DNA from: Clostridia bacterium
GTDB taxonomy: Bacteria > Bacillota > Clostridia > UBA1381
Length of the DNA: 40,673 nt
Assembly (NCBI GenBank): GCA_017443895.1
Contig: JAFSXU010000011.1
Location: forward strand, 1-40,673
Reading direction: 5' to 3'
The translations under genes and the position numbers were made by a program. The notes below the pieces were generated by a model. The model was not told the origin of the DNA. It did not search any database and saw only the letters and a program-made list of their open reading frames with translations. The stretch's first letter is position 1; each line of letters opens with the position of its first letter. Of this stretch, positions 12,676-34,343 are shown one piece after another.

Positions 12676-15600
12676 TTATTCGTATTCTCTTGCACTCTGC
12701 CTGATTATATCATTTACCCTGTCCGGTATATTATTTCTATCGTAGAGATATACTCCTTCAAAAATACTGTCCGTTGACTTATCTCTTACCTTATCCACCG
12801 TTGCATAATTTGAATGGACAAAATTATAGCCTATAGAGCTTTGCCACAAAGATATTGTGTATATGTTATTGCTTTCGGTATCAATCCCTACATCAATGAC
12901 ATTATTTTTTATTGTCATATATTTTGAGCCTTCATCCGGATATATTCCAACACTTCCGAATGTTTGGCGAGGCTCCTTATCCATAACTATATAATTTCCG
13001 TCAATTACCGTTCCGCTTTGCTGACCAAGGGTATAAATTGCACCTCCGTCCGATGCCCACAGGTTAAAGTTATGTATATAGTTATTCATAACTCTGTTAC
13101 GGCGGCACACCACCGAATCAGGGTAACTGCTCCAGCCCCAGCCCAAGCTTATTGCGGAATAGCTTGCATCTGTAATGCTGTTATGGGAAATATCGCAGTC
13201 TCTGACAAAATAGAATGCTATTGCAGGTGCGGATCTGTTTAATGTTCCCGTATTGCTTATAATATTGTTATATGCCTTATTATTTGCACATACCTGAGCC
13301 TCTGCTATGTATTCATGCCAGGGTCGTCCGCATGAGATTGCGGATGCACCGGTATTGTAAATCCTGTTATTGCATACAGCGGTGTTTGTAACGCCTATTT
13401 CCATAGAAACACCTGCCTTTGCAAAATTCGACAGTTCGCAGTCGGAAATATTGATACTGTCTGCATATGCAAGATGTATTGTTCCGTCAAAAAACCTTGA
13501 ATACTGTTTTCCTGCTCCCTCGCCTGTTCCTATAACGGCAAGATCCGCCTGTGCAACTCTGAAACCGCCTTTGTATACATCATGATAAGTAGCATTTTCA
13601 AACTTCAGACCTGAAAACGAAATGTTATGCGCTTTGTTGCTTTCTCCGCTTCCTTTGATTTGCACGAGCGTGTCAAGGTACGGTGCTTCTGCAACTGCCG
13701 TATTTATATTCTCACCCTGCCTTGGCATATAATAAAGCGTTTTAGTATTTTTATTAAAATAGAACTCGCCCGGATTATCCAAAAGCTCAAATGCATTTTC
13801 TATCGTGTACTCCGACTCGGCAGTCAAAGGATGAACACTTGCTGCACAAGCCGTATTAAAGTTTGGTGTATTTATGCTTATCCGTGTATTACCGTTTACC
13901 GTTTCTACGCTTTGGGCTCTGAAATAATTGTCTATCCAGCTCTTTACTGCACGGACATAGACATCAGAACCGTTTGACAAATACGGCAGCTTATCGTCAG
14001 AAAATGCTATGCCCGCATAATCATATGTACTGCTTCCAAATATCTCCGTTGCCGTAATGGTATTTTCTGTGTGAGCAAGCTGTGCAGGCTGTCCGTTTAC
14101 CAAAAGTCCGTAAATTTCAGACATATTCGGCACATATGCTTGCCATAATCCGTTATCACCCTGCTCAAAGGAAGGCAAATACCTGCCACCTGAAATTTCA
14201 GGAATTTCATCATTGTAATTTTTATATATGATATTATATCCGTTCTTTCCACTGTCAGCGGCAGTAAAGGAAAGCGTTTCGCCAAGAAGATACCTGCCTC
14301 CCTTTATGTAGACATATATATCCCCCTGCATTTTAGAGCTTATCCTTTTTATATAATTTTTCGCCTCAGCTATCGTTCCAAACGGTGCTTCCTCCGTTCC
14401 GTCACCGCCCGTTGCACCCTGCGACACATAGAGCTCTTTCCACGGTCTTGAATACTCAACAACCGCATTTACCGCCGGGATAAGCGGTTTCATATTTTCC
14501 ATGCTGTTCCATAGCATAAGCTTTGTATTTTCACTGTCTTCATTTTCAGGCACAGCAATCTCGCCGTCATCTGTACTGCTTTTTACTAATGATACAAGCT
14601 CACCGTCTGCACCATACCCTGCACATAACGCAATACCGTCTCCGTTTGCCGTATACTGCTCTTCATCATATTTAAGAGTTGCTTCATTTTCACCTATCAC
14701 AAGTTTGGGCAACGGGTAAGCATAAACCTCTATATCATCATACTGCGACCTTATGTATCTTCCCGAAATTGGCTTATCCGAATGTGTTTCAAGCCTTTTT
14801 TCGTCTGAAAAATCGCTCTTCTTTGCCACATATGCCTGCGCCCCGCACGGCTCAACATGATCAATTATGAACTCACTGCCAAGGTCATAAATGTATTCGC
14901 TGTTCTCTTGCGTTTGTGAACAATCAACTTTAACAAGCCTGTCCTTACCGTTCTTGGCAGATGCTTTTATTTCATTTATTCTTACATTGTCCGCACTCTC
15001 TATACCTATATAACGGATTTTTTTGTTTACTGAAACAGCTTCTGGAACATCTTTTTCAAGAGTGAGCTCTGTCGTATATTCGATTTCACCGTCACAGGAG
15101 AAGGTAACATTTATATCTCCACAGCCGGTTATCTCAACCATATCCGTATCACGGCAGTACCCTAAATCAATTGTTGCACTCTTGCCCTCCCAAAAAGTCT
15201 TGAGATCGCCGTCTGTAATTCTGTACGCCGTTTCGGTATCGGCATTTGTATTTGGGATTTTACCAAACGCCATATTGCTCACATCGCCGTGTCCGTCCTT
15301 TGCAAAAACTCTAATCTGGGACAAAACGAGGAAGGACTTGCTCTTACCCTCATATACACGGACATAGCGGTAATTATCAAATCTGCTCTTATTCACCGAA
15401 ACAAGAGCGCCCTTACCTCCAAAGGTTTCATCTTCCCACTGAGCATCAAGCTCATAAAAGCTGTTAAATTCGGGATCGTTTGACAAAAGCACTCGCACAT
15501 CTTCCCTGTCGGTGTTTAAGTCCTGCCTGAAATACACCTCTGTGTGGCTTATATCGTATGCTTTTTTCAGGTCAAGCTGTACATACGGGTTATTATGATT

Positions 15601-16986
15601 TAGCGCAGTAATCGTGAAATAATTTCCGTCAACCGCCGATGAGAGATTGAGGTCTCCGTATACTGAGGCACCATCGGGCATGGAAAGCTCTGCATACGGT
15701 GCTATATTTGTATACTCCTCTGTCTGCGGGTTGGAAAAAACATCTATTTTGTTTACTCCGCTTGCACCGCTGACCCTGATATATCTGTAATAATGCTTCT
15801 TTGCAAAAGCGTTGGGCACAAAGCTATCGGAAGACTTATTACACACCGTAGTCGTGCGCTCGGTTACATTTCCTGCCGTATCATTTCCGCTTGAATAAAT
15901 CGAAAATTCATAGAGCTGTATATCTTTTCCGCTCTTTCTTTTAGCAGCATCAAAGACCAGTCTTGCATAGCGGTATGTCTCGCTTGCATACTCGTCGGGG
16001 ATATAAAAAATCCCGTTCTGCTGCTCCATTTTGACATAGTCGGAAAATTCCTCCGTCTGACCGTAGCTAACATTTGTAAGATATACATCATAGCTACGCT
16101 CCGTTGTTGCGGTTACCTCTGCACTGCCGATAACGCATCGGCTTCCCAAATCCACCGTTACCCATTCTACATCTGTATATCTTACAGGGGTTGCATAAAA
16201 CAGTGTTGATGCATTTCCATCATTTGCATTAGCCACAACATTGCCGTTGTAGCCACCGCTGCCGTATAGCTTTGAAGATATGGATTTTTCCTGTGCAAGA
16301 TTTCCTATTGAATTACCACCGTTTGAAAAAACCGAAAATTCATACAGGCGAATATCCTTTCCGTTGCTGTTTTGCGCTGCGTCAAAAACAAGTCTTGCAT
16401 AGCGGAATTTATCGTATTGATACTGCTCCGGCACATAAAACGAGCCGTTTTTTTCTTCCATTTTGATACATTCTTTAAATTCTTCAGCCGGTTCGTAATA
16501 GTAATTTGAAAGATATACGCTATAGCTTCTTGTGGTTGTTGCCTTTACTGTTGCACTGCTTATTGCACAGGCACTGCCCAAATCAATCGTAAGCCACTCC
16601 ACATCGGTATAGCTTACAGGGGTTGCGATAAACATTGTAGACTCGTCTCCGTCATTTGCATTTGCCGAAACAAAGGTGGAATATCCGCCACTGCCGTATA
16701 GCTTTGACTTGATGGGCTTTCCGGCTGAAATATTTATCTCACTTCCCACGCTCTTTGGTGCAAAATCCGCATCGTTTGACGCTGTTACCTTTGCATTTGA
16801 TACATCTGTTCCTAAAAGACGGATATTGTCAATAGGATATGCACGACCAAGATCAAGGGTATATTTTCCGTCTGAATATACCATATTCTTCCCCTCGGAA
16901 ACATTTATAAGCTCCTCTGCTATGCACATTTGTGCAGAGGTTAAAAGCATACTTGTCGCAAGAATTGCCGATAGTAACTTTTTCAT
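12676..16986 (-). CDS. Secreted multi-domain protein: four discoidin-like domains + right-handed beta-helix (GH141-like)
   Basis: A 1436-residue exported protein (signal peptide about residues 1-23, ending MCIAEE). Two highly similar discoidin-like repeats at about 90-230 and 233-375 each open with SKLYGSGGY and carry ANANDG. Further discoidin-like domains lie at about 427-575 and 575-690, then a beta-rich linker. From about residue 849 a right-handed parallel beta-helix begins with YVSQGATGGDGT, of the kind found in GH141-type and related beta-helix glycosidases. The motifs DGGAIYTLG (about 1314) and YPDEG (about 1347) place acidic residues where a catalytic pair could be. The start at 16986 has AAAGGAG 8-9 bases upstream; an ATG at 17007 has no usable site. 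No SLH, LPXTG or lipobox is seen, so anchoring would be through partners or glycan. A glycan-trimming exoenzyme is the best guess; family number and linkage are not certain. Confidence 0.88.
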   Translation of the reverse strand: MKKLLSAILATSMLLTSAQMCIAEELINVSEGKNMVYSDGKYTLDLGRAYPIDNIRLLGTDVSNAKVTASNDADFAPKSVGSEINISAGKPIKSKLYGSGGYSTFVSANANDGDESTMFIATPVSYTDVEWLTIDLGSACAISSATVKATTTRSYSVYLSNYYYEPAEEFKECIKMEEKNGSFYVPEQYQYDKFRYARLVFDAAQNSNGKDIRLYEFSVFSNGGNSIGNLAQEKSISSKLYGSGGYNGNVVANANDGNASTLFYATPVRYTDVEWVTVDLGSRCVIGSAEVTATTERSYDVYLTNVSYGQTEEFSDYVKMEQQNGIFYIPDEYASETYRYARLVFDAAKRKSGKDIQLYEFSIYSSGNDTAGNVTERTTTVCNKSSDSFVPNAFAKKHYYRYIRVSGASGVNKIDVFSNPQTEEYTNIAPYAELSMPDGASVYGDLNLSSAVDGNYFTITALNHNNPYVQLDLKKAYDISHTEVYFRQDLNTDREDVRVLLSNDPEFNSFYELDAQWEDETFGGKGALVSVNKSRFDNYRYVRVYEGKSKSFLVLSQIRVFAKDGHGDVSNMAFGKIPNTNADTETAYRITDGDLKTFWEGKSATIDLGYCRDTDMVEITGCGDINVTFSCDGEIEYTTELTLEKDVPEAVSVNKKIRYIGIESADNVRINEIKASAKNGKDRLVKVDCSQTQENSEYIYDLGSEFIIDHVEPCGAQAYVAKKSDFSDEKRLETHSDKPISGRYIRSQYDDIEVYAYPLPKLVIGENEATLKYDEEQYTANGDGIALCAGYGADGELVSLVKSSTDDGEIAVPENEDSENTKLMLWNSMENMKPLIPAVNAVVEYSRPWKELYVSQGATGGDGTEEAPFGTIAEAKNYIKRISSKMQGDIYVYIKGGRYLLGETLSFTAADSGKNGYNIIYKNYNDEIPEISGGRYLPSFEQGDNGLWQAYVPNMSEIYGLLVNGQPAQLAHTENTITATEIFGSSTYDYAGIAFSDDKLPYLSNGSDVYVRAVKSWIDNYFRAQSVETVNGNTRISINTPNFNTACAASVHPLTAESEYTIENAFELLDNPGEFYFNKNTKTLYYMPRQGENINTAVAEAPYLDTLVQIKGSGESNKAHNISFSGLKFENATYHDVYKGGFRVAQADLAVIGTGEGAGKQYSRFFDGTIHLAYADSINISDCELSNFAKAGVSMEIGVTNTAVCNNRIYNTGASAISCGRPWHEYIAEAQVCANNKAYNNIISNTGTLNRSAPAIAFYFVRDCDISHNSITDASYSAISLGWGWSSYPDSVVCRRNRVMNNYIHNFNLWASDGGAIYTLGQQSGTVIDGNYIVMDKEPRQTFGSVGIYPDEGSKYMTIKNNVIDVGIDTESNNIYTISLWQSSIGYNFVHSNYATVDKVRDKSTDSIFEGVYLYDRNNIPDRVNDIIRQSAREYE

Positions 16987-17026
16987 AGTCCGTTCTCCTT
17001 TGTTCATATCCTATACTGTTTTCATT

Positions 17027-17086
17027 TTCTTTCACAATCACCCTCTTGCAAGGGTGATTGTGAAAGAAGAGGAAAACCTCTTCTTT
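17027..17086 (-). repeat. Two overlapping, mutually exclusive long hairpins
   Basis: A perfect 18-bp inverted repeat (17027-17044 with 17051-17068, loop CTTGCA) overlaps a second 10-bp inverted repeat (17063-17072 with 17077-17086, loop of four A on the plus strand). The shared bases 17063-17068 cannot pair in both stems at once. The pair fills most of the 115-base gap between the discoidin gene ending at 17102 and the beta-helix gene starting at 16986. Neither stem has a T-run on the transcribed strand, so RNA stabilisation or processing fits better than termination. Confidence 0.75.
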
Positions 17087-17101: not shown

Positions 17102-19360
17102 TTATTTACCTGCAACATTACCAAATGGAACCATGGTTGTTTTACCCTCTGTATCACATTCCCAAACAAAGCCGTAATAGGCATCGTTTTCGGAAACCTC
17201 ACCTGTCGGTGTAAAGTTGAATGTTAATTCTCCGCTCTGTGATGAAACAGTCTTAACATCTGAGATTGATATTTCTTTAAGCTCTGTGCCATCATAACGG
17301 GCAATTATCATTTTTACATATTTATCTACCTGATAATCTCCCTCAAATGCACAGGTAAGCGTGTATTCGCCCTCACTTTGAGAAATAGTGTTTGTTATTT
17401 CCGTATTGCGTGGCTCTGAGCTTGAAAATACCTTTATTTCCTTTGCGATACACTCTCCGTTACTGTTTGCTGTTACTATAACATATTTATACCTTGTATC
17501 GGTATTTGGAGTATATCTTATCGTTTCACCTGCCGAATATGCGGCATATGATGCTGTTTGCCCTATCTGCAGTGCATTATCCGTATTATTTGATTTTTCA
17601 TTTGACAGATAGACATTATATCCCTTTTTGTTATGCTCGCCCGGAGCTCCACGCATAATTACATCTATCCATTCGATTTTCTGCGGATAGTCAAGCTCTA
17701 CAAGGACGCAGTTATTCGATAAGCCACCCTCTGTTGACTCGTTTCCGTCAACAAAGCTTTCTTTTACCATGCCCCAGTAGTTGTAATCTGCGCCTCTTTC
17801 AGTGCCGTCATCGTTATAAAGCGTAACGCTTCTTTTAAAAGCTCTGTTTTCACATACCGTCTCTGATGTGGGAACATAAATCTCTATTTCTCTTATTCTC
17901 CACGGATTATCTCCGTATCCGTCACTTGGCTCAAAAATACGCACATAACGGTAACCCTCTAAATCCTCTGCTAAGCCTGACGGAGTGCTGTTATACTTTA
18001 CAGGATCGTTGTTATGGTCTGTACGGTATTGCATAGTTGTAAATACCTCATGATTTATAAAGCTCGGATCGTTTGATACCCAAACCTCACCTACAGATGC
18101 TGCATGATAGGAATTATGATATGTCTTTATATTTGTTATTGTATACGAGTTCCCAAGATCAATATCATAGTATTCACCCTGAGTTTCGGCTTTAGCGTAG
18201 TTTATAAATTCGTTTCCTGTTGTATCTCCGTCAGTTAATGCTACAAGTCCGTCATTATGCCCGTAAATCTTACTTGTAACAGCTTTTCCACGAGCAATAT
18301 TTGTCTTTTGGGATACTGCCTTTTGTGCTGCGCTTTTTGTACTGTAGACAGTTATTTCAGCCTGATCCCATACAACATTCGTATGATCTGCACCGTCAGC
18401 TGTGCTGTACGGCTCAACACTGTAATCTATCATTATATATTTAAAGTCTTCACCATATAGCTCCGCCTCACTCGGGTCTATATACCAAGCTGTGTCTTCC
18501 TCATCATAATTAAAAATTGCGCATGATACAAAGCTCGGGTCGTTTGACGCATACACGCCGACAATTTCGCCCTTTCCGTTTGGACCTAAGGTCTGCGTTA
18601 CCATTGTAATTGGATACTCATTTTCCAAATCAATGATAACATCTGCATTTTCGTCCGTCGCACCGTATGCAAGGTAAACCGTGGAGGCATCTCCGTCGTT
18701 AATCATATAAAGCTCTTTTCCAAAGCTTGTACCGTTAAATTTACTGTATACAGGCTTGCCTACAGATACGGGAGCCATATCAAAGGTGTCCGGCGCCCAT
18801 ACCCTGATACGGGGTATTCTGAATGCCGTAGTCTGACCGGTGCCCTTTAAAAGCCTTAACTGAACATATCTGTATGGCGCCACTTTTTCAGGCTCAAAGT
18901 AGGAATTATATCCGCCATTTGATGCCGGTTGGAACTTATCACCTATAACATTGAGCTTAACAGCAGATGCTGGAGCATCATGCTGATTTGCAGGCGCTGT
19001 ATTCATTACATAGCAATCAAACACAACATCGTTACCGTAATTATAGAATTCGCCCTTCGACTGATCTGCGTAATAGCTTGCAACATCAATTTGATTTATG
19101 CTGTATTTTGCGCCAAGATCTATGGTGATTATCTCCATATGCTCTGAGTCCCAGCCACCGTCTGAAATGAATATACCGCTATCCGAGGTTACATTGGCAA
19201 CCGTTCCGCCGGCGTATTCGCCGTTACCGTAGCATGCAGATATGGCGCTCTTACCTTCAGCTACATCAAAATCGGTCGAACCCTTTGCGGCAAGTACCGC
19301 AGTTCCTGCCGGCACAGCCATAATTACGGCTATAAGACCGGCAACAATTTTTCTTAGCAT
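17102..19360 (-). CDS. Secreted discoidin-domain protein A (four F5/8-type-C-like domains)
   Basis: A 752-residue exported protein with a clear signal peptide (MLRKIVAGLIAVIMAVPAG, cleavage near AALA-type VLAAKG). Four discoidin-like domains follow at about 30-190, 195-355, 365-510 and 515-660, each with the strand pattern of a DLG segment, a YRYVQL or YRYVRI-type strand and an I-x-V-type closing strand. A beta-sandwich-like tail (about 665-752) ends the protein. No catalytic domain or wall anchor is visible, so it probably binds glycan or another surface protein. A strong AAGGAGG lies before the ATG. It is a paralogue of the protein at 19850-22120: the signal peptide, domain 1 and domain 4 are nearly identical, while domain 3 and the tail differ strongly. 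A 264-base structured gap precedes it. Confidence 0.88.
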   Translation of the reverse strand: MLRKIVAGLIAVIMAVPAGTAVLAAKGSTDFDVAEGKSAISACYGNGEYAGGTVANVTSDSGIFISDGGWDSEHMEIITIDLGAKYSINQIDVASYYADQSKGEFYNYGNDVVFDCYVMNTAPANQHDAPASAVKLNVIGDKFQPASNGGYNSYFEPEKVAPYRYVQLRLLKGTGQTTAFRIPRIRVWAPDTFDMAPVSVGKPVYSKFNGTSFGKELYMINDGDASTVYLAYGATDENADVIIDLENEYPITMVTQTLGPNGKGEIVGVYASNDPSFVSCAIFNYDEEDTAWYIDPSEAELYGEDFKYIMIDYSVEPYSTADGADHTNVVWDQAEITVYSTKSAAQKAVSQKTNIARGKAVTSKIYGHNDGLVALTDGDTTGNEFINYAKAETQGEYYDIDLGNSYTITNIKTYHNSYHAASVGEVWVSNDPSFINHEVFTTMQYRTDHNNDPVKYNSTPSGLAEDLEGYRYVRIFEPSDGYGDNPWRIREIEIYVPTSETVCENRAFKRSVTLYNDDGTERGADYNYWGMVKESFVDGNESTEGGLSNNCVLVELDYPQKIEWIDVIMRGAPGEHNKKGYNVYLSNEKSNNTDNALQIGQTASYAAYSAGETIRYTPNTDTRYKYVIVTANSNGECIAKEIKVFSSSEPRNTEITNTISQSEGEYTLTCAFEGDYQVDKYVKMIIARYDGTELKEISISDVKTVSSQSGELTFNFTPTGEVSENDAYYGFVWECDTEGKTTMVPFGNVAGK

Positions 19361-19849: not shown

Positions 19850-22120
19850 TTATTCAAACAGTGACGGAACAGCTGTGCCAAGCTTTGCAAAGCTCTCGCC
19901 TACAATGTATGGAATTGCATAGATTGTTGAGCTTAAAGCGCCGCTCATCTGTGCGATTGCGGTACCGAAGGTGCCGTTTTCACGCTTTGTGCTCTCCTGC
20001 CATACGATAGGCTCGCTATCAACTATACTGTTGGTATTTACAAATGCGAAACCGCAGTTTGTAATCTCATCTGTCTCTACATTTGCAGGGGTTGCGTCCC
20101 ATGTCATATACTTAACGCCGTCCTGCGTCTGATTGCCATTTTCTGCCGATACTGACGGCTCAACAACAGGCTCCGGCTCACTGCTTGAAAATACCTTGAT
20201 TTCCTTTGCAATACATTCACCGTTGTTATAGCCGCTTATTAAAACATATTTATATCTTGTATTGGTATCAACATTATATCTTATTGTCTCCCCGTCTACA
20301 TACGGAGCGCTCTCATCGGTTGTTCCTATCGGTAATGCATTTGACAAATTGTTAGACTTTTCATTTGAAAGGTAAACATTATATCCCTTTTTGTTGTTTG
20401 TGCCGGCACCTGACCTCATTACTACATCTATCCATTCAATTTTCTGTGGATAGTCAAGCTCAACAAGGACGCAGTTATTTGATAAGCCACCCTGTGTTGA
20501 TTCGTTTCCGTCAACAAAGCTTTCTTTTACCATTGTATAGTAGTTGTATTCTGCGCCTCTTTCAGTGCCGTCATCGTTATAAAGCGTAACACTTCTTCCC
20601 AAAGCTCTGTTTTCACAAGCCGCCTCTGATGTAGGAACATAGATTTCAACCTCGTTAAGCTGCCAGTCACTAAATGTTTCTTTATTACCCGTAATTCTTA
20701 CATAGCGGTAGCTGCCTACCTCAGACGGAAGAACAGCCTGTGAATATGATGTATAGCAGCTGTAATCATATGTGTCGTTATTGAAACGATACCTGTGACC
20801 GCTTAATTCTACAACCTTGCCGCTGCTAAAGTTAGGGTCATTTGAAACCTCAACCTTTGCTACAGCATATCCGCGCGGTTTATATCCAAGGTTTCCAATC
20901 TTTTTCGTTCTGACATTCTCAATAGTATACGATGCGCCAAGGTCATATGTTATCCGTGGTGTTGTGGCAAATGTAAACCAATATGTACTATCATTTCCGT
21001 CATTTGCATTATCATCATAGTATACATCATAGCCCGGCTCGTTTGAAGTAAAGCTCTTGCCCGTAGCAATATTTACAGTGCTTTTTGCCGAAGCTTGAGC
21101 TGCCGCGCTTTGGGTACTGTAAACCGTTATTTCAGCCTGATCCCATACAACATTTGTGCTGTCACTGCCTACGCCTCCGGAAGTATGCGGTGCAACATTA
21201 TAATCCACTTTTATGTATTTGTATGGCGTACTGTCATCAAGATACCATGAATTGTCACCCGAATCATAGCTAAGTGCTACAGATGATGCAAAGCTCGAAT
21301 CATTTGAAGCATATACTCCCGCAATAGTTCCTATCGGATATGATGCTGTGGTCTGCGTTACCTTTTTGATTGGATATGTATTTTCCAAATCAATTATAAC
21401 ATCGGCATTATCATTATTTGCTCCGTAAGCACTATACACAGTTGAAGTGTTGCCATCGTTTATATTCCAAACACCGCTGCTGTAGGCAGTTCCATCAAAT
21501 CCGGTATATGCCGGCTTGCCTACAGACACGGGCGCAAGTGCCTCCTCCTGCGGTGCCCATACCTTAATACGGCTTATTCTAAATGCAGTATTCTGCTCTG
21601 TACCCTTTAAGAGTCTTAACTGAACATATCTGTACGATGCTGGGCTTGAAAGCTCAAAATGTGAATCATATCCGCCACCCGTACGCGCCTGGAATTTATC
21701 GCCTATAACATTAAGCTTAACCGCAGATGTCGGAGCATCACTTTGACTTGCAGGCGCTGTATTCATTACATAGCAATCAAACACAACATCGTTACCGTAA
21801 TTATAGTAGTCGCCCTGCGACTGATATGCGTAATAGTTTTCAACATCAATTTGGTTTATGCGATATTTGGAACCGAGGTCTATGGTGATTATCTCCATAT
21901 GCTCTGAATTCCAGCCACCGTCTGAAACAAAGATACCGCTATCCGAGGTTACATTGGCAACAGTTCCGCCGCCGTATTCGCCGTTACCGTAGCATGCAGA
22001 TATGGCGCTCTTACCTGCGGCTACATCAACATCCGTCGAACCCTTTGCGGCAAGTGCCGCAGTTCCTGCCGGCACAGCCATCATCACTGCTACTATACCG
22101 GCAATAATTTTTCTTAACAT
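19850..22120 (-). CDS. Secreted discoidin-domain protein B (paralogue of A)
   Basis: A 756-residue exported protein with a signal peptide almost identical to that of protein A (MLRKIIAGIVAVMMAVPAG). It has four discoidin-like domains at about 30-190, 195-345, 360-510 and 515-665, then a different C-terminal tail with GVKYMTWDA and a region ending in SLFE. Domain 1 and domain 4 are near-identical to A (domain 4 shares SVTLYNDDGTERGA and SNNCVLVELDYP). Domain 3 begins VNIATGKSFTSNEPGY where A has TNIARGKAVTSKIYGH, and the two diverge from there. No catalytic domain, SLH or sortase signal. The ribosome-binding site AAGGAGG and spacing match A. Likely role: glycan or surface binding, with A and B possibly differing in ligand through domain 3. 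Confidence 0.88.
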   Translation of the reverse strand: MLRKIIAGIVAVMMAVPAGTAALAAKGSTDVDVAAGKSAISACYGNGEYGGGTVANVTSDSGIFVSDGGWNSEHMEIITIDLGSKYRINQIDVENYYAYQSQGDYYNYGNDVVFDCYVMNTAPASQSDAPTSAVKLNVIGDKFQARTGGGYDSHFELSSPASYRYVQLRLLKGTEQNTAFRISRIKVWAPQEEALAPVSVGKPAYTGFDGTAYSSGVWNINDGNTSTVYSAYGANNDNADVIIDLENTYPIKKVTQTTASYPIGTIAGVYASNDSSFASSVALSYDSGDNSWYLDDSTPYKYIKVDYNVAPHTSGGVGSDSTNVVWDQAEITVYSTQSAAAQASAKSTVNIATGKSFTSNEPGYDVYYDDNANDGNDSTYWFTFATTPRITYDLGASYTIENVRTKKIGNLGYKPRGYAVAKVEVSNDPNFSSGKVVELSGHRYRFNNDTYDYSCYTSYSQAVLPSEVGSYRYVRITGNKETFSDWQLNEVEIYVPTSEAACENRALGRSVTLYNDDGTERGAEYNYYTMVKESFVDGNESTQGGLSNNCVLVELDYPQKIEWIDVVMRSGAGTNNKKGYNVYLSNEKSNNLSNALPIGTTDESAPYVDGETIRYNVDTNTRYKYVLISGYNNGECIAKEIKVFSSSEPEPVVEPSVSAENGNQTQDGVKYMTWDATPANVETDEITNCGFAFVNTNSIVDSEPIVWQESTKRENGTFGTAIAQMSGALSSTIYAIPYIVGESFAKLGTAVPSLFE

Positions 22121-24218: not shown

Positions 24219-24225
24219 TTAAACA

Positions 24226-27200
24226 TTATTTATACACAATAACCGACACGGGCGGCCCTTCTCTTGTAAACAGAATAACCTCATCACCGATTTCTACATT
24301 TGACGGAAGGCTTGAGCCGTAGTATTTTTCTATAACATTGTTATCCTTAACAATGAATATCTGCTTTAGCTTTCCGTAAATTACGCTGTCTGTCTGCATA
24401 ACCCCGTATCTCTCACAGGTTTCCATAATAAATGCATCATCTCGCATTTGCTTTGCCGTTCCGTATACAAGACGGAATGACGCACTTGGATACATCGGAT
24501 AAGAATCACCGGCTGAATACCAGTTTCCGTCCTTTGTTGCGGGATATTTTCCCTTAAAAGAGTTATTTGCCTCAAATACACGCTCCGCCGCAACAGCTAC
24601 GCCACCCTCTATCTGAAGTCTTACTATATCGCCGTATTTAAGTGAGGTTATCGGCATTATGTAGTCAGAAACTATCGACATATCGACCCTTGCAGGATCA
24701 ATAAATTTGTGGTCGTCTAACCAGTTCCACTGCTCATGCTGTATATTGTCCGACAGGTAAACATTCTTCAGGTCTAAATCTGTATGATATTCCTGCTCTT
24801 CACCGGTCTGTATATTATAGCCCTTTATCGAATATGTACGCTCTCCGTATTCGTTTTGTGTATATGAAACCTCGGTAACTATTATACCAGGTGAATACTC
24901 GTCCGATATTTCAAGCACACCGCTTTGGCTTACCGCAGAGTACTTTTGATATTTTACGGCAAAGGTTGGGTAATTGTTTTTATCTGCTCCGTAAAATGCA
25001 ACCTCGTCCTTTATCTGCGAAAGGCGTGTAAACGCACGCTCGGTTGTCTCCGCCCTGTAATATCGCTCATAATCCTTTGAGCCAAATGTGCCGTTTACCC
25101 ACGGAATAGTAAAGCTTAATGTATCCTTCCTAAGTGGTAAAACCTGATAGCCATGTGAATATATTCCGCCCGTATCGGGCATATTTACCTTTTCTGTTCC
25201 AAGGTTTACATCCATCTTCACCAGCTTTGAGTTTGACTCTGTTCCTACCTCTTCTGTATCAAGATAGTCTATCTCACCGTCAGAATTTAAAGTGTACATT
25301 ATAAAGCTACCCTTTATCGTGTAGCCCTCATCACGGATCATTTCCCTTATACGGCTTCCTTTATATATCTTGCCGTCTATTGTAACCTTGGACGCAAACG
25401 GGTAATTATCAAACACGCCATACTGCGAGAATATCCTCAATCCTGCAGTGTCCATATCCCATTGACCCGTTATCATAGCTGTTACAAAGCCATATATCTC
25501 GCCCGAGAGCTTCATGCTGTCCTTAGGTATCCATACAAGTCTGCCCGTATCGTCAAGCAGCACGGTTATTGGGTTTGAAAAGATTATTTCATCAAAGTTT
25601 GAGCGGTTTGCCTTATAGTATTCACTGAATTTAACCTTTCTGCCGTCAATGGTAACGCTGTCACTGCCAAGCAACTCAACCGTTCCGTCAAGAATTTCGT
25701 ATGTTTGGTCTATCCACATACTTGCTTTATTATCGGAAAGGTAAACCTTAACCAGCCCGTTCTTATCTATTCTTCCTGCGGTTGACGGTTTTGAGTTTTT
25801 GGTTATTTTAAGGTAATTAAGCTCACTCGCCGATATAACAGTTCCGTCAAGCGAAACAACTGTTATCTTACCGTCAACATTGGATACATAATTTACCGCC
25901 GTTATCTGAGGAACATAACAAAACGCCACATCCATTTTTCCGTCATCATTGTTGTCGGTAAATTCAATATATCCGTCAGGACAGATAAGGTCTTGTGTGT
26001 CCCAGTCCGTAATCGCACTGTTGTTCCTTATTACATACATATCATCAGCAAAAAGGACTTTCTTTTCTCTGTCATTTTCGTCAAGATACTTATATTGGCT
26101 TTTAGAAATCTCTGTTCTGTCGCTGTCATATACCTTTAAAATATCATTCTTTTTCGGTATGATCCATGATGCCAAAATCTTACCTTCGTCTTCTTTGTCT
26201 GTAAGTATTCCGATGTTTCTGCCTATCCACAGCTCTGTCTGTGAGCTTTGATCTCTATAACTGCTATTTCCAATCTTAATATAACCGCTGCCGTTATCCT
26301 TTTCCCTGATAAGAGAGGTGTTGCTGTTCTCACTCATAAGTCCTTCCGTTACCTTTAAGTCAAAAACAGACTCCAGAGCGGTTTCATCAGACTCGGAATA
26401 GTAATATTCTCCGTCAACAATCGAAACATTGTCAAATTTCGGTGTGAGCAGAGCATTATACAAAAACTTTGCGGCATTTGCACGGCTTATAGGCGCCCCC
26501 GACTCAACCGAAATATTTTTCTTGAGCTTCAATTTATTTGAAACAGCATATACTCCGCCCGACCAGCCACCGTTACGCTCAACATAATCCTGATAGTTCA
26601 TAGAATACAATATCAGTTTAAGAAGCTCTGTATCGGTAACAAAATCATTCGGTCGAAACAGCTTATCCGTACTTATAACACCGTTTTTATATGCCGTATA
26701 TATGTAATCTGCCGCCCAATGATCGGCACTGACATCCGAAAACGGCATTTTATCCGCCTTTTGGATTGCCATATTTGAAAATGTGGTTATAACCTTTGCC
26801 GCCTGCGCACGAGTAAGCAACGCATCACCCGCAAATTCGTTCTTGCTTATGCCCTCCATTATGCCAAGGTATGACAAAAGCGTTGCCGCAGGCGCATAAT
26901 CAGTGCCTACAGTATCGTAAAATTCGGATTTTACCTTCATCGTTACAGGATCGTAAAGCTCTCCGTAAACCTCAATCTCGGCAACAACTATATACTGCTT
27001 TGATGCGATCCTGACATACCTAAACGGTGTATCGTATTCGGAAAAAAATGTGTAATCCTGCTCATATTCGCCCGGTGTATCTACTGTGCCTATTGTAACC
27101 GCATCGGAAAAGTTGCGGTTGTTAGCGGCTTGTATAAGCCAACCTGTTCTTGCATCAGGCTGATCAAGACCTCGCCTTGTAACTGCTGTTATTGAGTCTA

Positions 27201-27465
27201 TAAGATAATCTCCGCCCAAGTCTACCGCCACATACTGATAACCGCCTAAAGTACCCTCAAGTGTCACACTTCCCATGGACCATATATCATTATAATTGCC
27301 ATTTGTAACATTCTTCGGGGCATATGAATCGTCCTCGGTATATTGACTGCTGCCATATGTTTCCTTGTCGTATGCAATATTATCCGCCGCCTGTCCGATC
27401 AGATGAAACGCTCCAAAGCATACAAGCATTATTGCAAATGCCAGCCATTTTTTACCTTTTATCAT
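24226..27465 (-). CDS. S-layer homology protein with N-terminal discoidin-like domain and large unknown C-terminal region
   Basis: A 1079-residue exported protein. A signal peptide (about 1-26, ending LIGQAA) precedes one F5/8-type-C-like domain (about 27-172; YVAVDLGGDYLIDS, FRYVRIAS, IEVYGE). An SLH region at about 190-345 follows, with LLTRAQAAKVI, FSDVSADHWAADYI and ISRANAAKFLYNALL. SLH domains bind secondary cell wall polymer, so the protein should sit on the cell surface with about 730 residues exposed. This C-terminal part is beta-rich, has no recognisable catalytic motif, and repeats short K-V-Y-x-S-D and T-I-D-G-(R/K)-type strands. The SLH block being near the N-terminus is the reverse of the neighbour. 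The start overlaps the upstream SLH gene by 4 bases, so the two are coupled and probably made in similar amounts. Confidence 0.9.
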   Translation of the reverse strand: MIKGKKWLAFAIMLVCFGAFHLIGQAADNIAYDKETYGSSQYTEDDSYAPKNVTNGNYNDIWSMGSVTLEGTLGGYQYVAVDLGGDYLIDSITAVTRRGLDQPDARTGWLIQAANNRNFSDAVTIGTVDTPGEYEQDYTFFSEYDTPFRYVRIASKQYIVVAEIEVYGELYDPVTMKVKSEFYDTVGTDYAPAATLLSYLGIMEGISKNEFAGDALLTRAQAAKVITTFSNMAIQKADKMPFSDVSADHWAADYIYTAYKNGVISTDKLFRPNDFVTDTELLKLILYSMNYQDYVERNGGWSGGVYAVSNKLKLKKNISVESGAPISRANAAKFLYNALLTPKFDNVSIVDGEYYYSESDETALESVFDLKVTEGLMSENSNTSLIREKDNGSGYIKIGNSSYRDQSSQTELWIGRNIGILTDKEDEGKILASWIIPKKNDILKVYDSDRTEISKSQYKYLDENDREKKVLFADDMYVIRNNSAITDWDTQDLICPDGYIEFTDNNDDGKMDVAFCYVPQITAVNYVSNVDGKITVVSLDGTVISASELNYLKITKNSKPSTAGRIDKNGLVKVYLSDNKASMWIDQTYEILDGTVELLGSDSVTIDGRKVKFSEYYKANRSNFDEIIFSNPITVLLDDTGRLVWIPKDSMKLSGEIYGFVTAMITGQWDMDTAGLRIFSQYGVFDNYPFASKVTIDGKIYKGSRIREMIRDEGYTIKGSFIMYTLNSDGEIDYLDTEEVGTESNSKLVKMDVNLGTEKVNMPDTGGIYSHGYQVLPLRKDTLSFTIPWVNGTFGSKDYERYYRAETTERAFTRLSQIKDEVAFYGADKNNYPTFAVKYQKYSAVSQSGVLEISDEYSPGIIVTEVSYTQNEYGERTYSIKGYNIQTGEEQEYHTDLDLKNVYLSDNIQHEQWNWLDDHKFIDPARVDMSIVSDYIMPITSLKYGDIVRLQIEGGVAVAAERVFEANNSFKGKYPATKDGNWYSAGDSYPMYPSASFRLVYGTAKQMRDDAFIMETCERYGVMQTDSVIYGKLKQIFIVKDNNVIEKYYGSSLPSNVEIGDEVILFTREGPPVSVIVYK

Positions 27466-30400
27466 TCACTCACCCCCACATTCAACAGCTTTAACAACGC
27501 ATCGGTTATTACTGCCGACTGCGCACGGGTAAGAGACTCATAAGGTCTGAAGCTGTTGTCTTCAAATCCGTTTATAATGCTAAGGCCTGACAAAAATCCG
27601 ACCGCCTCTGTTGCGTAATCCGATATATCATTGGTGTCTGTAAAATCTTTACTTTTACGGAAATCGTAAAAGCCCTCATGGTTTAAAAGATTCATACACA
27701 TAAGCGCCGCATCCTGCCTTTTTATATAGGTATTTGGACTAAACAGTTCCTCACTGACACCGCTCGTAATTTTACACGAAACCGCCACATCAACATACGG
27801 ATAAAACCAGTCAGAAGCATTGCAGTCAGAAAATTTTACTGTTTTATTCGGGTCTGATACCAATGGGAACGCCGCAACAAGCATTTTTATAAATTCTGCC
27901 CTGCTAACAGGTCTGTCAGGCTCAAATAATCCATTTCCAACACCTGCAACAATCCCTTTTTGGTAGAGATTATATACACTGCTTGCCGCCCAGTGATTTG
28001 TCGGCATATCGCTAAAATTCGCTGTTTCTCCTGCACCCGTATTTGATGGAACAGGTAAATCAGATGCATTACCACCCGTTAAGGAAACTCCGACTTTTGC
28101 AAAGCCTCCGCCTGACGATGAGCCACCACCGCCGCCACCGCCGGAGGAACCACCGGTTGTTTTTTGTGTCATAGCCGATATTATGGTTGAAATTTCCTGC
28201 TTTAAGCCGTCGCCCCAGCTTGTCTGTGTTTTATTGCCAAGCCTTTTTGCAATATCGTATATATCAATTCCGCTCTTCCTTATGGCTGATAAGTCAACCT
28301 TCAATATATCGGCATATGTTTCAAGTGCTGATGCAATATCTTCGGTTTTTGCACCCTCAATGTGCGATAATACCGCAGAAAGCTTCAATGTGTCGAAAAT
28401 GTTGACTGAAGTTGTTTTAATCTGCTTAAATACAGTTGAAACCTCAGAATTATTTTCCGTTCCGTCAAATATGTTATCCATAATACTTCCGTATCTGCTT
28501 ATGAGCGAAGCAGTGCTGTCCTCGCCCGCTGAAACCGCATCTATTACCGATGCCACCATAAGAGCATCATGAATATCCTGTGCCGAAATATTTGCCGGAA
28601 CATTCTTTTTCCATTTGGAAATATCCGACATTGCCTTTACAAAGCTTGTGCCAATTCTTGCAAGATGCTCTGACACATACGGAATATCTCCGAAAGATAT
28701 TACTCCAAGCTCTTTATAATATTTATTGTAATTAACCGAAAAATTTGTTGCAGATGTGGTTTTAAACGCCTCTATTGCCTCTGCTAAAAGCGTATCATCA
28801 GGCACGGTTTTGGTAAATGTGTATTCTGCTAAATGTGCCTTTTCAAACACATCGCATATTCCAAGCTTTACAGTATATTCTCCATAGTCTGCCGAAAACG
28901 GAAGATGGTACTCAAATGAATAACCCTCGCCTACAGGCTTTAAGTCTGCAAAAATAAGGTTATTCTCTGTATCGTATATGCGAACATACACTTTGTCCGA
29001 CGCTATCACTCCACCCGTCGGCATAACCGAAAGGCTAATTCCGTCACTGTAAGTCTCACTTGTAATTGCCGTATCAAGCTCTTTGGTTTTTACTTGTTCG
29101 TATACCTCCTCATCACTGCCTATAACATAAATATTACCGTCTAAAAACTCGTGTCCCGCTCCCAAAACGCACTTGCTTTCCTTTGTTAAAAAAGCAACAC
29201 ATCTTTTAGCATAGGCACTGCCTGTTAAAACTATTGATTCCGCCTTTTTTTCTCCGGGTGCTAAATCAACTTGCAATTCTTTTGTCGCAATAACATCTCC
29301 GTACTCATCAAATGCACACGCAAATGCCGTTCTTGTTTCATTGCGGTCATAGCTTATATTTTCTATTGAAAAGCCGATTTCCTCACCCTGTTGATAAAAA
29401 TTGCCAAGAATATCCGTATCAAACGAATTTACCTCAACCTCTGACAGGGATATTTTTTCTCCGTTAGCAGGCAGAATACAGATATATCTGTATTTTTTAT
29501 CCTCCGCCATTTTGGGACTGATTTCTTCCATATTTTCAGGGTCTGTATTGAATAACCCTGCACGAAGCTCAACACTATCGGCGCCCTCGCCCTTGCATAA
29601 AATATTGTTTATGTATGAGGGCACCTCCAAATCAATTATTGCAGATGAGAATGCTTTTTGTGTATCTTCATTTCCGTCTGTAAGAGCTGAACTGTAATCC
29701 CACTTGCCGTCTGTTTTAACACGCTTTGAAAGGGCGCTGTTTTTTGTCATATCCCTTGTTTCTTGGAAAACGGTAAGCTCGTTCACTTCAAAAACCCGCT
29801 CACTGCTCGCCTTTCTTGCCTCGACAATCCTGAACTTTTCCAAGGCATGTTCCTCAGGCAGTCTGTACATACCGTCCTCGCCCTGCTCAAGAAGTATGCG
29901 GTTGGTAAGCTCATCGCCATGTGCGACTCCCACATCATTTGAAACGGAAATCTCAAGCTTTTCCACCTCACGGGATATTTTTATGGAAACCTCTGATATA
30001 TTTATACTCTCACCAAGGTCTATCCTTATCCACTCAACCGGCTTTTCCTCAGTCGGCGTTGAAATAAAGCTCGTTTTATCATCACCGTCATTTGCATTGG
30101 CGCAAACAAAGCCATTAAAACCGCCCTCACCATAAAGGCGTGATAAAATTGGTTTGCCCTCTGAAACAGCAATACTACGGTTAGTAAACTCTTTATCATC
30201 GACAGGCTCATCTTCCGTTTTGTCATACGAATACACCGTCATTTCACGAACTCTGAACAATGATATACTATTGGGAACACGCAAACGAACATATCTGAAT
30301 TTTTCTTTCTCCTTGTCCGCATTCAGAATATATCCATCAGTGCCCTTCTCAAGAACGCTGTATTCAGAAAAATCCTCTGACGCCGATACCTCAACAGCAT

Positions 30401-30698
30401 ATTGACTTACACTTCCTGCAAAGGTAATGCTCACATATGCAATAGTGTATTTTGCTTGTAGGTCTATAACCAGTGAATCTTCAGTGCTTTTCCCTTTATT
30501 GCTATAGAAAAATGTATTGACATTGTCATCATTGGCGTTTGCCGCAACATTCCCGTTATAGCCTTCCTCGCCGTAGACTGTTGAATATATAGGCTTATTA
30601 ACAGATATAGCCTCCGGTTTCTCTGTCTCTGCCACAGCCGGCAGAGACATCATAGAAACAGTGAGCATTATTGCCGTCAAAAACGCTGTTATTCTCAT
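27462..30698 (-). CDS. S-layer homology protein with discoidin-like repeats and C-terminal SLH domains
   Basis: A 1078-residue exported protein with a signal peptide (about 1-23, ending PAVAETE). Discoidin-like repeats at about 30-155 and 175-315 carry the module seen in the 12676-16986 protein (VYGEEGYNG and LYGEGGFNG, each with ANAND). A third weak discoidin-like domain, two beta-sandwich-like regions and a helical region (about 640-840) follow. A linker of mostly Gly and Ser (about 845-865) leads to three SLH units (FSDMPTNHWAASSVY; FSDCNASDWFYPYVD; FTDTNDISDYATEAV) reaching the C-terminus. This is a typical surface-anchored layout with binding modules projecting outward. It starts 15 bases after the beta-helix gene and overlaps the next SLH gene by 4 bases. 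No catalytic domain is evident, so a glycan-binding or scaffold role is more likely. Confidence 0.92.
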   Translation of the reverse strand: MRITAFLTAIMLTVSMMSLPAVAETEKPEAISVNKPIYSTVYGEEGYNGNVAANANDDNVNTFFYSNKGKSTEDSLVIDLQAKYTIAYVSITFAGSVSQYAVEVSASEDFSEYSVLEKGTDGYILNADKEKEKFRYVRLRVPNSISLFRVREMTVYSYDKTEDEPVDDKEFTNRSIAVSEGKPILSRLYGEGGFNGFVCANANDGDDKTSFISTPTEEKPVEWIRIDLGESINISEVSIKISREVEKLEISVSNDVGVAHGDELTNRILLEQGEDGMYRLPEEHALEKFRIVEARKASSERVFEVNELTVFQETRDMTKNSALSKRVKTDGKWDYSSALTDGNEDTQKAFSSAIIDLEVPSYINNILCKGEGADSVELRAGLFNTDPENMEEISPKMAEDKKYRYICILPANGEKISLSEVEVNSFDTDILGNFYQQGEEIGFSIENISYDRNETRTAFACAFDEYGDVIATKELQVDLAPGEKKAESIVLTGSAYAKRCVAFLTKESKCVLGAGHEFLDGNIYVIGSDEEVYEQVKTKELDTAITSETYSDGISLSVMPTGGVIASDKVYVRIYDTENNLIFADLKPVGEGYSFEYHLPFSADYGEYTVKLGICDVFEKAHLAEYTFTKTVPDDTLLAEAIEAFKTTSATNFSVNYNKYYKELGVISFGDIPYVSEHLARIGTSFVKAMSDISKWKKNVPANISAQDIHDALMVASVIDAVSAGEDSTASLISRYGSIMDNIFDGTENNSEVSTVFKQIKTTSVNIFDTLKLSAVLSHIEGAKTEDIASALETYADILKVDLSAIRKSGIDIYDIAKRLGNKTQTSWGDGLKQEISTIISAMTQKTTGGSSGGGGGGGSSSGGGFAKVGVSLTGGNASDLPVPSNTGAGETANFSDMPTNHWAASSVYNLYQKGIVAGVGNGLFEPDRPVSRAEFIKMLVAAFPLVSDPNKTVKFSDCNASDWFYPYVDVAVSCKITSGVSEELFSPNTYIKRQDAALMCMNLLNHEGFYDFRKSKDFTDTNDISDYATEAVGFLSGLSIINGFEDNSFRPYESLTRAQSAVITDALLKLLNVGVSE

Positions 30699-30713
30699 CT
30701 GCCGTCCACTCCT

Positions 30714-33700
30714 TTATTCCAATACTTCTATTCCGGTTTTAAGATTACAAAAACCAATATAGCCCGATAATGCTTTTCGTGTTGCGAGAACGCTCTCCTG
30801 TGGCTCGCCGTTTATCCATATTTGAATTGCACATTTATCAGCCACAGGTTGAAGCTCTACCTTAATCTCATTCGGCTCATTATTTTTAATACCTGCAATA
30901 CTGCCTGTTTTTAATAGCCTGTCCTCACCGTTTATGTGCTCATAAATCGATGCCGTATCTCCGTTTATTTCCAAACGGAAATGCTCATCCTTCTTGTAGA
31001 GCCCATGTACTTCAAAGCCATCGGAGCTGTTTGCGGCAAAGATAAATTGCAAACTCGCTATATCACTTCCGCTTTTGGGGATAAACCGAATTTTCTGTGC
31101 CTCATTTTCGGCAAAATGCTTTCCCCAAATATATGCCGCCTTGTTAATACTTAAATATGTCCGACCCGAATATGATGCTACTTTCGTATTCTTTTCCGTA
31201 GCTACCGTTCTCCACTCATTATCAGATTTTGTAAATATTGGGATTACCGTCCAATATTCGTATTTTTTTATTGTCGGTGAATAAACAGGAAGCTTAAATT
31301 CCCCTGTATAGTCAAGCGCCGTTTCAAATAATGCCGATTTTGCCGTACCCTTTAGTGTTACCTCAGTCTTGCACAGTCTTACATCGGTATTTTCCGGCAT
31401 ATATATCTTTATTGTCCGTGTTTTATCGTCTTTTTCTTCGCCAAGCATTCCGTCCGCCCACAAATAAACAACGCCAAAGCCCGCCTTTGTGTTTACAAAT
31501 TTGCGGTATTCATCCTCTAAGCGTTTAATAAGAGCAAACTCTGCCTCATCTAAGAGAGGGGAGGCGGCATCAAGTCGTATTTTGGACAGTTTATCGGAAA
31601 ATTCCTTTTTTTCTTTTGCTGTAACGGAATTTTCAACGCTTTTATCCTCACTTGTAATCGTATTTTCAAGCTCTGTTTCGCATCGTTTTATAAGCTCGTC
31701 AAGTGTCATTCTTATAACATTGTCTGCCGCCTCATTTATGTATTTTCTAAGCTTTATAAGAGACTCAACATAGTCAGTAGAGCTTTTTGTGCGAACCTCT
31801 TGCAAAGCATCTGTAAGCTTATACTTGTACTGTATAGGATAATCTCCGGGCAAATCTCCAAAGCTTCCCTTTTCAAGTATGGTTTTTGCAACTGTGATTG
31901 TACTGTTTTCAAAAAACTCCCATATCTGAGAATTTGCTTCAAGTATTACCCTGGGCTCCTCAACCTCAAGCTCTGCATCGGGCACTATTAACAACCATTT
32001 TCGTGCCTCACCTTTAAGTCCTGCATTCTTCTTTATTGCGTATGCTTTGGGGTCGTCCTGTCCCGGGAGATATTCACCTGTATTTTCAAGCACATTGTCC
32101 GTTCCGTCATTTCTGTGTATATTATGCCAGCCGTAGCTTGATATAAATTGGTTTTCTCTTATCGTGCTCATCCATATATTATAGTTTCTGAAAACATCCT
32201 CCGAAACATTGTTCCGCCAAATGGAATATGACGAGCCCTCGTCCGGATAAAATGCACCGGCTCCTATAAATACATTTCTGACATAATTTTCTTCAACAAC
32301 CGTTCCTTTTTGCTCAGAGAGCATATATATTGCCGCACCGTCATGCATTGTATTGTTGGTGCTGTGGATATAGTTTCTTGCAATGTGGTTATTTCCGCTT
32401 CCCTGTGCGTTATTGCGCCAGCCCCAGCCAAACATAAGTCCCGAATACGGTATGTCAAATATTTCATTATCGCATATTTCAAGACCCGTTGTATAAAAGC
32501 AGCTTATACCGCCGCCTGAGCATATTGATTCACCGCTTCGGGCGATATAATTGTTTGTAACAGCCGTATCCTGTACTCCAACACAGGTAGTATACGGCTT
32601 GCGGTCGGGGGTTATTGCGGCTACGGCAGATACCGAAAATGTACCCGCTTCCTTTGACCTTATCATCATGTAGCGGTATTTTTCTCCGTTTAAATTTGGA
32701 GTATACTCCGCCATACGGCCTGCAGGCTCATCCTGCTCCGCAATCTTAATATATGTCCCGTCCTTAAAATCCCTGTTATTTGACAAGAGTATTTCATATC
32801 CCATCTTGTTTTCGGACGGCACTGAGCTTGAAAAGCCCATAACTATTTTAGTTATATTATACGGTCTGTCAAAATCATACCTTATCCAGCTTTTCTCACC
32901 CTTTTTAACTGCAAGCGGATCTCCGCTCCATACACCCGTTTTCTCAAGTATGACATCTTCATCATACCAGCTTCCCGTTCCCGAAAGAGTGCCAAAATCG
33001 TCCTCATAATAAGATGTTGCAACCTTTGTCCTTTCGGTTATAAGATTGGTTTTTGCATCCGGCGGAGGAACTACCTGAACACTCTCATATGTTGTTCCTA
33101 TTCCGCCATGCTCATGCCTGCCGACAACTATCGATGCATCTCCAATATCGGAAAAGGCATTGCCGCTTATAACCGTTCCTTTTGCGGCATCAATTATATG
33201 TATTCCCGATGAACCGTAACCAAAGAAATAATTATCCGAAAGCTCAATATCATTTGCTCTTTCAATACTTATCGCCGGCGGAATATACCACGGTACATCA
33301 TTTGTTCTTGTAGTCATTTGTTGCTGAGCAGTTTCTATTCCCGCCTCGTCAGGACCGTAAAAAGCGGAATGGGCGATTTTAAGTCCCTCTATCGTAATGT
33401 TTTCTACTCTGTCATCAGTATCATTGCCGTCAAAGATTATGAGCTTATCCAAGGCAGGTGCAATTACCTCTGCATTTTGGATATCTTCACCTTTTCTCGG
33501 CATATAATACACTGTTTTTTCTTTTTTGTTATAGTAAAACTCACCGGGTTTATCCAAAAGCTCAAACGCATTCTTTACAAGGAACGGCCTGTCGTACCTT
33601 GCACGCAAATCACTTGCGGGAGATTTTGTCATTTTCTCCCACCAGCCCTGTTGCATAAGCACGATAACCTGCTCATCATTGTCCGGGTCGGGAATTATGT

Positions 33701-34343
33701 CCTCCACCTTACAAGTGTTGTTCTTCCAGTTTATCTGCCAGTTAAACTCGATATCCTCCGGATTTTCGTATTTGCCGATTTCAGTTCGGGACATATACAT
33801 ACCGTCGCATTGATAGGCAGTTTTGGGGTCATCATAAAAATCTATGCCCTTTACCTGTCGGTTTGATGTTGCAACATATGATTTTCTTCCGTTTACATAC
33901 ATCTCACGCATCATAGATACGCCCTCAACGGGTGCTTTATATATACCCTCAGTTTCTGTCGGCACAAATCCGGTGATTTTCACTCCGCCTGAAAGCTGTG
34001 GCATATTTTCTCCACGGTATATTATCCTGTGTCCGTTTTTCCCGGAATCCTCCGTCAAAAATACCAGTGGACTGTCCAGAAAATATGTGCCCTCACCAAT
34101 ATGTACAATTATATCTTTGTCCATACCGTCAGATATTTCCCGAACTGTCTCCTGTGCTTTTGCTATTGTCTTAAATGCAGTCGCCTCCGACTCCCCGTCA
34201 TTTTCATCACTGCCGTCAATACTGACATAAAATTCCTTCCAATAATGCTCGTTGTCGGCAAAAACGAATTTGGAATTGGGCAATGCAGTGATTGCAAAAA
34301 TCACTGCACATATAACACAAATCCATCGTGCTTTGTAATTCAT
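30714..34343 (-). CDS. Secreted right-handed beta-helix protein (GH141-like) with inserted discoidin-like domain
   Basis: A 1209-residue exported protein (signal peptide about 1-29, ending FVFADN). The beta-helix starts right after it (FYVSIDGSDENDG, about residue 36) and shares EDSGKNG-x-x-IIY, NAFELLD-x-PGEFY and YYMPR-x-GE with the other beta-helix protein of the cluster. A discoidin-like domain of about 155 residues (430-585; IRYDFDRPYNITKIV, YRYMMIRS) interrupts the helix, which then resumes with DGAAIYMLS (about 667) and YPDEG (about 698), positions of candidate catalytic acids. A helical region (about 790-960) and a lectin-like beta-sandwich (about 1080-1209) end the protein. GGAG lies 5 bases before the ATG, and the gene follows the binding-protein gene by 15 bases. 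It is likely an extracellular glycosidase; the exact family and linkage are unproven. No wall anchor is seen. Confidence 0.88.
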   Translation of the reverse strand: MNYKARWICVICAVIFAITALPNSKFVFADNEHYWKEFYVSIDGSDENDGESEATAFKTIAKAQETVREISDGMDKDIIVHIGEGTYFLDSPLVFLTEDSGKNGHRIIYRGENMPQLSGGVKITGFVPTETEGIYKAPVEGVSMMREMYVNGRKSYVATSNRQVKGIDFYDDPKTAYQCDGMYMSRTEIGKYENPEDIEFNWQINWKNNTCKVEDIIPDPDNDEQVIVLMQQGWWEKMTKSPASDLRARYDRPFLVKNAFELLDKPGEFYYNKKEKTVYYMPRKGEDIQNAEVIAPALDKLIIFDGNDTDDRVENITIEGLKIAHSAFYGPDEAGIETAQQQMTTRTNDVPWYIPPAISIERANDIELSDNYFFGYGSSGIHIIDAAKGTVISGNAFSDIGDASIVVGRHEHGGIGTTYESVQVVPPPDAKTNLITERTKVATSYYEDDFGTLSGTGSWYDEDVILEKTGVWSGDPLAVKKGEKSWIRYDFDRPYNITKIVMGFSSSVPSENKMGYEILLSNNRDFKDGTYIKIAEQDEPAGRMAEYTPNLNGEKYRYMMIRSKEAGTFSVSAVAAITPDRKPYTTCVGVQDTAVTNNYIARSGESICSGGGISCFYTTGLEICDNEIFDIPYSGLMFGWGWRNNAQGSGNNHIARNYIHSTNNTMHDGAAIYMLSEQKGTVVEENYVRNVFIGAGAFYPDEGSSYSIWRNNVSEDVFRNYNIWMSTIRENQFISSYGWHNIHRNDGTDNVLENTGEYLPGQDDPKAYAIKKNAGLKGEARKWLLIVPDAELEVEEPRVILEANSQIWEFFENSTITVAKTILEKGSFGDLPGDYPIQYKYKLTDALQEVRTKSSTDYVESLIKLRKYINEAADNVIRMTLDELIKRCETELENTITSEDKSVENSVTAKEKKEFSDKLSKIRLDAASPLLDEAEFALIKRLEDEYRKFVNTKAGFGVVYLWADGMLGEEKDDKTRTIKIYMPENTDVRLCKTEVTLKGTAKSALFETALDYTGEFKLPVYSPTIKKYEYWTVIPIFTKSDNEWRTVATEKNTKVASYSGRTYLSINKAAYIWGKHFAENEAQKIRFIPKSGSDIASLQFIFAANSSDGFEVHGLYKKDEHFRLEINGDTASIYEHINGEDRLLKTGSIAGIKNNEPNEIKVELQPVADKCAIQIWINGEPQESVLATRKALSGYIGFCNLKTGIEVLE

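Follow-up and report, generated by a model that had tools for sequence, protein, structure and literature searches.

In a glycan-uptake locus of a rumen clostridium, an exported GH141-like protein and an SLH protein (SLH-A) carry copies of one subfamily of F5/8 type C (discoidin/CBM32-like) module, and SLH-A lies in tandem with a second SLH protein (SLH-B). The shared module itself is ordinary; SLH-A and SLH-B are each one half of a repeated two-gene surface pair. The window, that is the whole stretch of DNA analysed, comprises 40,673 nucleotides from a Clostridia bacterium. Our reading, to which we give a probability of roughly 55%, is that the locus combines a shared glycan address with a two-part SLH-A/SLH-B surface unit. 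SLH-A and SLH-B would be secreted and held on the cell wall via their SLH repeats, acting as one unit, and the F5/8 modules of SLH-A would keep a particular glycan at the cell surface. On the GH141-like enzyme, which has no anchor, modules of this type would serve as an address label for that glycan rather than as a protein-protein dock; with the enzyme aimed at the same glycan, cutting would occur where the ABC importer can catch the products, to be finished in the cytosol by GH20C, GH38, a GH94-type enzyme and NagA/NagB. The substrate would probably be a GlcNAc- and mannose-containing glycan, and the pair recurs, with different front ends, in many other loci of the order.

The minus strand reads, in order, an oxidoreductase, two permeases, a DUF3502 solute-binding lipoprotein, a GH141-like exported protein, SLH-A and SLH-B, followed by GH20C, two F5/8 proteins, the F5/8-GH141-like protein, GH38, a GH94-type enzyme, a GH66-like protein and PHP (Table 1; exported proteins are named below by their first coordinate). 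One of the divergent genes (1878-3470) fuses glucosamine-6-phosphate deaminase to a ROK-family kinase. From this gene content the products handled by the locus would include GlcNAc and probably mannose. The N-glycan locus of Streptococcus pneumoniae holds GH38, GH20C and a DUF3502 ABC importer, and here too GH38, GH20C and a DUF3502 solute-binding protein stand together, but no endo-glycosidase was recognised in the window, which has GH141-like and F5/8 exported proteins instead. The GH141 insertion domain (PF21231) scores 28.3 and 34.6 bits in the two GH141-like proteins (cut-off 27), and the Beta_helix model falls below its cut-off in the 12676 protein and above it in the 30714 protein. Signal peptides were read by eye on the 12676, 17102, 19850 and 30714 proteins; none of the four shows an SLH repeat, dockerin, cohesin, LPxTG, lipobox or C-terminal hydrophobic tail, and a pattern for a common C-terminal motif (WD..KPL) gave too few matches to be of use. 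SLH repeats in the window are confined to SLH-A and SLH-B. The initial annotation had described two anchored SLH proteins and four large exported partners without an anchor, which holds, as far as sequence tells, because LPxTG, lipobox, C-terminal tail and dockerin are all missing from the four. It had also called the putative surface complex non-cellulosomal: like a cellulosome, the locus brings SLH anchors together with several exported enzymes, but its proteins are without cohesin or dockerin, and the word is right for them. Elsewhere the same genome does hold a small cohesin/dockerin system, made up of an SLH-plus-cohesin frame, further cohesins and three dockerins (G000:C64:43281-46205, C22:12137-13204, C33:14248).

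Table 1. Coordinates of the features discussed, as positions in the window.
Feature	Position	Strand	Basis
Divergent GlcNAc genes: APH-family sugar kinase-like, NagB-ROK fusion, NagA, nucleotidyltransferase	808..5386	+	
Cytosolic enzymes: PHP protein, GH66-like, GH94-type, GH38-type	5451..12655	-	
Exported protein: F5/8 modules then GH141-like beta-helix, without anchor	12676..17007	-	PF00754, PF22633, PF21231
LYG-type F5/8 module 2 of exported GH141-like protein	15880..16311	-	alignment, Smith-Waterman, profile
LYG-type F5/8 module 1 of exported GH141-like protein	16315..16731	-	alignment, Smith-Waterman, profile
Exported protein with four F5/8-like modules, without anchor; module 1 a decayed LYG relative (19076-19264)	17102..19360	-	
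Paralogue of the 17102..19360 protein (62% identical); module 1 an LYG relative (21836-22027)	19850..22120	-	
GH20C-type beta-hexosaminidase, without signal peptide	22223..24073	-	PF18088, PF00728
SLH-B: F5/8 module (26995-27351), SLH repeats (26635-26922), unnamed core	24226..27465	-	
SLH-B core, unnamed family; predicted string of small OB/SH3-like beta-barrels	24229..26418	-	AF2 pLDDT 79
SLH-A: LYG modules, stem, Gly/Ser linker, three C-terminal SLH repeats	27462..30698	-	
Three SLH repeats of SLH-A	27501..28016	-	
SLH-A stem: beta part then helices, common to other SLH-A proteins	28182..28925	-	
LYG-type F5/8 module 2 of SLH-A	29745..30176	-	alignment, Smith-Waterman, profile
LYG-type F5/8 module 1 of SLH-A	30219..30608	-	alignment, Smith-Waterman, profile
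Second GH141-like exported beta-helix protein, without anchor	30714..34343	-	PF21231, PF13229
ABC importer: DUF3502 solute-binding lipoprotein (lipobox) and two permeases	34359..37736	-	

Both module-bearing genes are real open reading frames (1443 aa for the 12676 protein, 1078 aa for SLH-A), the former extending to 17007, since the 16986 boundary given initially is an internal ATG. They share one F5/8 type C subfamily in four copies, two per protein, with pairwise identities of 31-61% and 21 invariant columns in the full-length alignment. Smith-Waterman z scores against shuffles are 20-64 among these LYG-type modules and 0.6-9.7 when they are compared with the other F5/8 modules of the locus (tested pairs). 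By blastp the 12676 protein matches SLH-A at 3e-29 and 3e-22. All LYG modules are assigned by Pfam to F5/8 type C (PF00754, PF22633), with scores above the curated cut-offs in the 12676 protein (PF22633 69.4 bits, PF00754 65.2 bits) and in SLH-A (57.7 and 63.5 bits). The first description had a domain opening with LYGxGGYNG and containing ANANDG twice in the 12676 protein. Two domains are indeed present, with ANANDG at residues 115 and 259, but the exact opening occurs once (LYGSGGYNG, residue 247), in this one of the four copies; the others are variants, beginning with LYGSGGYST at residue 103 of the same protein. The divergent pair that it reported in the SLH protein is borne out, with VYGEEGYNG at residue 41 followed by ANANDD at 53, and LYGEGGFNG at 188 followed by ANANDG at 200. 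A-x-A-x-DG is an ordinary signature of the F5/8 type C family, and it is the LYGxGGYNG opening that is special to this module. The modules weakly resemble sugar-binding structures, namely fucolectin FBP32 and the CBM32-type domain of a glucanase/chitosanase (E 0.003-0.006).

A search for the module in other loci of the genome had been suggested by the initial annotation, and it confines the subfamily to this locus: a profile built from the four copies has no match elsewhere in the 2.7 Mb genome (99.5% complete), which does contain other F5/8 domains, outside the LYG subfamily. Within the locus, the N-terminal modules of the 17102 and 19850 proteins are decayed relatives (CYGNGEY..VAN; profile E 4e-7 and 2e-6), and SLH-B bears an F5/8 module of its own that is distantly related to the LYG type. 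Among 60 relatives, strong copies occur in one congener only. A pattern scan of the GTDB species genomes, built on the module alignment (that of SLH-B being too divergent for such use), finds the subfamily only on a contig of the rumen MAG RUG12844 ("uncultured Ruminococcus sp."), evidently the one already seen in the congener; its remaining matches are distant F5/8 domains at 24-32% identity. In this congener gene order is kept, with the solute-binding protein, GH141-like protein and SLH-A on one contig and SLH-A, SLH-B and an F5/8 protein on another (66-89% identity across both). Between the two species the F5/8 modules are 72-74% (SLH-A) and 85% (SLH-B) identical, as against 59-66% for the SLH-A stem between modules and SLH repeats, and we argue from this better preservation that the modules do something. 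Of the module-bearing enzyme the last 176 residues lie on a third contig (93%) and the module part lies beyond the contig break, which leaves only a single genome in which anchor and enzyme can be seen to share the module, a point against our reading.

SLH-A has the customary three SLH repeats (108 bits), and SLH-B has two clear ones and a faint third (59 bits). No Pfam or NCBIfam model matches the SLH-B core. Its AlphaFold model (pLDDT 79, pTM 0.49) is a string of small OB/SH3-like barrels whose structural matches are generic OB/SH3-type barrels only, none with Z >= 8, and for this reason we draw no function from it; the S-layer array protein EA1 ranks 44th (E 7e-3, TM < 0.1). Foldseek returns no match with E < 0.7 for a model of the SLH-A stem (pLDDT 71). 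The genome is unusually rich in SLH, with 112 repeats in several dozen reading frames over its 2.7 Mb.

In a search of relatives, matches to the two SLH proteins fall side by side. We sampled about 80 regions from some 20 genomes, chosen from the best SLH-B matches per genome and not for the presence of SLH-A; genes were called and then classed by profiles. SLH-A proteins combine a variable front with C-terminal SLH repeats; in SLH-B proteins the repeats lie close to the N-terminus, and the core measures 550-730 aa. SLH-A lies directly upstream on the same strand in 50 of the 73 SLH-B genes, most gaps being -4 to 40 nt, and downstream in eight; about 12 have no SLH-A adjoining or within, which weighs against our reading, and A-type genes make up 9% of all genes in the sampled regions. 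By domain coordinates, three single genes are A-B fusions (L100:5507-11608, L104:7866-12119, L153:7218-11531), of which a stricter rule counts one; the fusions include one of 2034 aa. A YtcP/LplB-type permease lies at most seven genes away in 31 of 74 cases. In the genome of the window, which holds at least 15 SLH-B genes, the neighbours of such loci (n=60) include 12 ABC permeases and many glycan enzyme families (GH1, GH36, GH38, GH39, GH43, GH127, GH130, heparinase-type enzymes, and rhamnogalacturonan and pectate lyases). A better conserved SLH-B of about 860 aa is found in many genomes of the order (for example L054, L056, L050, L060 and L057) and is perhaps the founding member or a main S-layer protein.

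SLH-A and SLH-B might instead be structural S-layer proteins that stand in glycan loci incidentally, their modules binding the cell's own wall polymer or S-layer glycan. The beta-barrel string modelled for the SLH-B core is what a structural array protein might look like, and SLH-B relatives do occur elsewhere in the phylum, in 21 of 397 other genomes sampled (E up to 1e-10). These matches are single and weak, from which we conclude that the expansion belongs to this order. Against a structural role, copies are many and divergent within a genome, have different front ends and lie near ABC importers and many glycan enzyme families, which makes it quite improbable.

Sharing of modules between SLH-A and its neighbours was examined for 68 SLH-A fronts, with signal peptides removed and overlapping regions excluded, by seeking the best non-SLH relative in the fetched loci of each genome (the whole genome was used for the window's LYG module). 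A relative was detected for 16 of the 68 and lay in the same locus for 13 of these 16, where gene numbers predict 1.2; such sharing is therefore not peculiar to the window, although only a minority of SLH-A proteins show it. That low share counts against our reading, as does the fact that tandem duplication can by itself produce shared modules within a locus and would lead to the same pattern. The sharing might then be a by-product of duplication and module shuffling between neighbours, devoid of common function. The 17102 and 19850 genes are clear tandem duplicates (62%), and the module tree leaves unsettled whether module 2 of SLH-A is nearer to the modules of the enzyme. The identity of these two paralogues extends over 650 residues and their last 100 residues cannot be aligned, as if tails had been swapped. 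We nevertheless regard a mere by-product as unlikely: between species the modules have changed less than the stem, and they have remained intact in two proteins of very different kinds.

The initial annotation had left two functions side by side: binding of the same glycan, or assembly of the exported partners on the SLH proteins. In the latter case the modules would be protein-protein docks, F5/8-F5/8 contacts gathering the unanchored proteins on SLH-A or SLH-B into a surface complex that needs neither cohesins nor dockerins. The four anchorless exported proteins do share a conserved locus with the two SLH proteins, and all carry F5/8-like modules. We know of no precedent for F5/8 domains as self-docking modules, the modules are found, like ordinary CBMs, on glycan enzymes next to importers, and for 52 of the 68 SLH-A proteins no module relative could be detected in non-SLH genes of the fetched loci; docking thus appears very improbable. 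F5/8 domains bind many things, including lipids and proteins as well as glycans, which counts against a glycan address. The same-glycan option nonetheless fits all findings (the F5/8 fold, the company of glycan enzymes and an ABC importer, the confinement of the module to this locus, its better preservation and the same-locus sharing) and is better supported than docking, for which we have no positive evidence.

That CAZymes can carry F5/8 modules, and that they can be anchored by SLH repeats, has long been known, and SLH-anchored CAZymes and CBM proteins are familiar from Paenibacillus, Caldicellulosiruptor and thermophilic clostridia. The present locus resembles the F5/8 type C/CBM32 modules of gut and soil CAZymes in fold (PF00754, PF22633), in tandem N-terminal copies on exported enzymes and in A-x-A-x-DG, but the LYG subfamily is narrow (this locus and one congener) and is also found on an SLH anchor. 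With SLH-anchored CAZymes it shares (predicted) wall anchoring by SLH repeats and glycan-active or glycan-binding parts; here, by contrast, anchor and enzyme are separate genes with a common module, and there is an A-B pair with an unnamed core in B. The literature searched, an incomplete set with no paper that treats SLH in Monoglobus, yielded no description of the pair or of the SLH-B core, so that novelty is provisional; neither tandem SLH pairs nor SLH combined with discoidin modules are described there, and two camel rumen papers only count SLH domains (PMC9177762, PMC6071333). Tentatively, and as something possible rather than probable, SLH-A/SLH-B could be an undescribed wall-bound glycan-capture pair of this clostridial order, reused in many glycan loci, whose interchangeable fronts are matched to the secreted enzymes of each locus, in a SusC/SusD-like role. 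The comparison is one of analogy only: Bacteroidota likewise repeat a two-gene surface pair, SusC/SusD, across many glycan loci, each with its own enzymes, but there is no homology, and here we deal with a Gram-positive wall, SLH anchoring and ABC import.

Little is known of how uncultured rumen and gut clostridia that lack large cellulosomes retain enzymes and glycans at their surface. The conserved SLH pair, repeated many times and possessing an unnamed core, provides a handle on clostridial surface glycan use, and the repeated anchor pair, found here in the glycan locus of a rumen clostridium, deserves study. The deeper question is the role of SLH-B and the reason for its association with SLH-A, for which a two-part unit would be the natural guess. 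SLH pairs often mark glycan loci, and front modules common to anchor and enzymes would help to tell what a locus eats.
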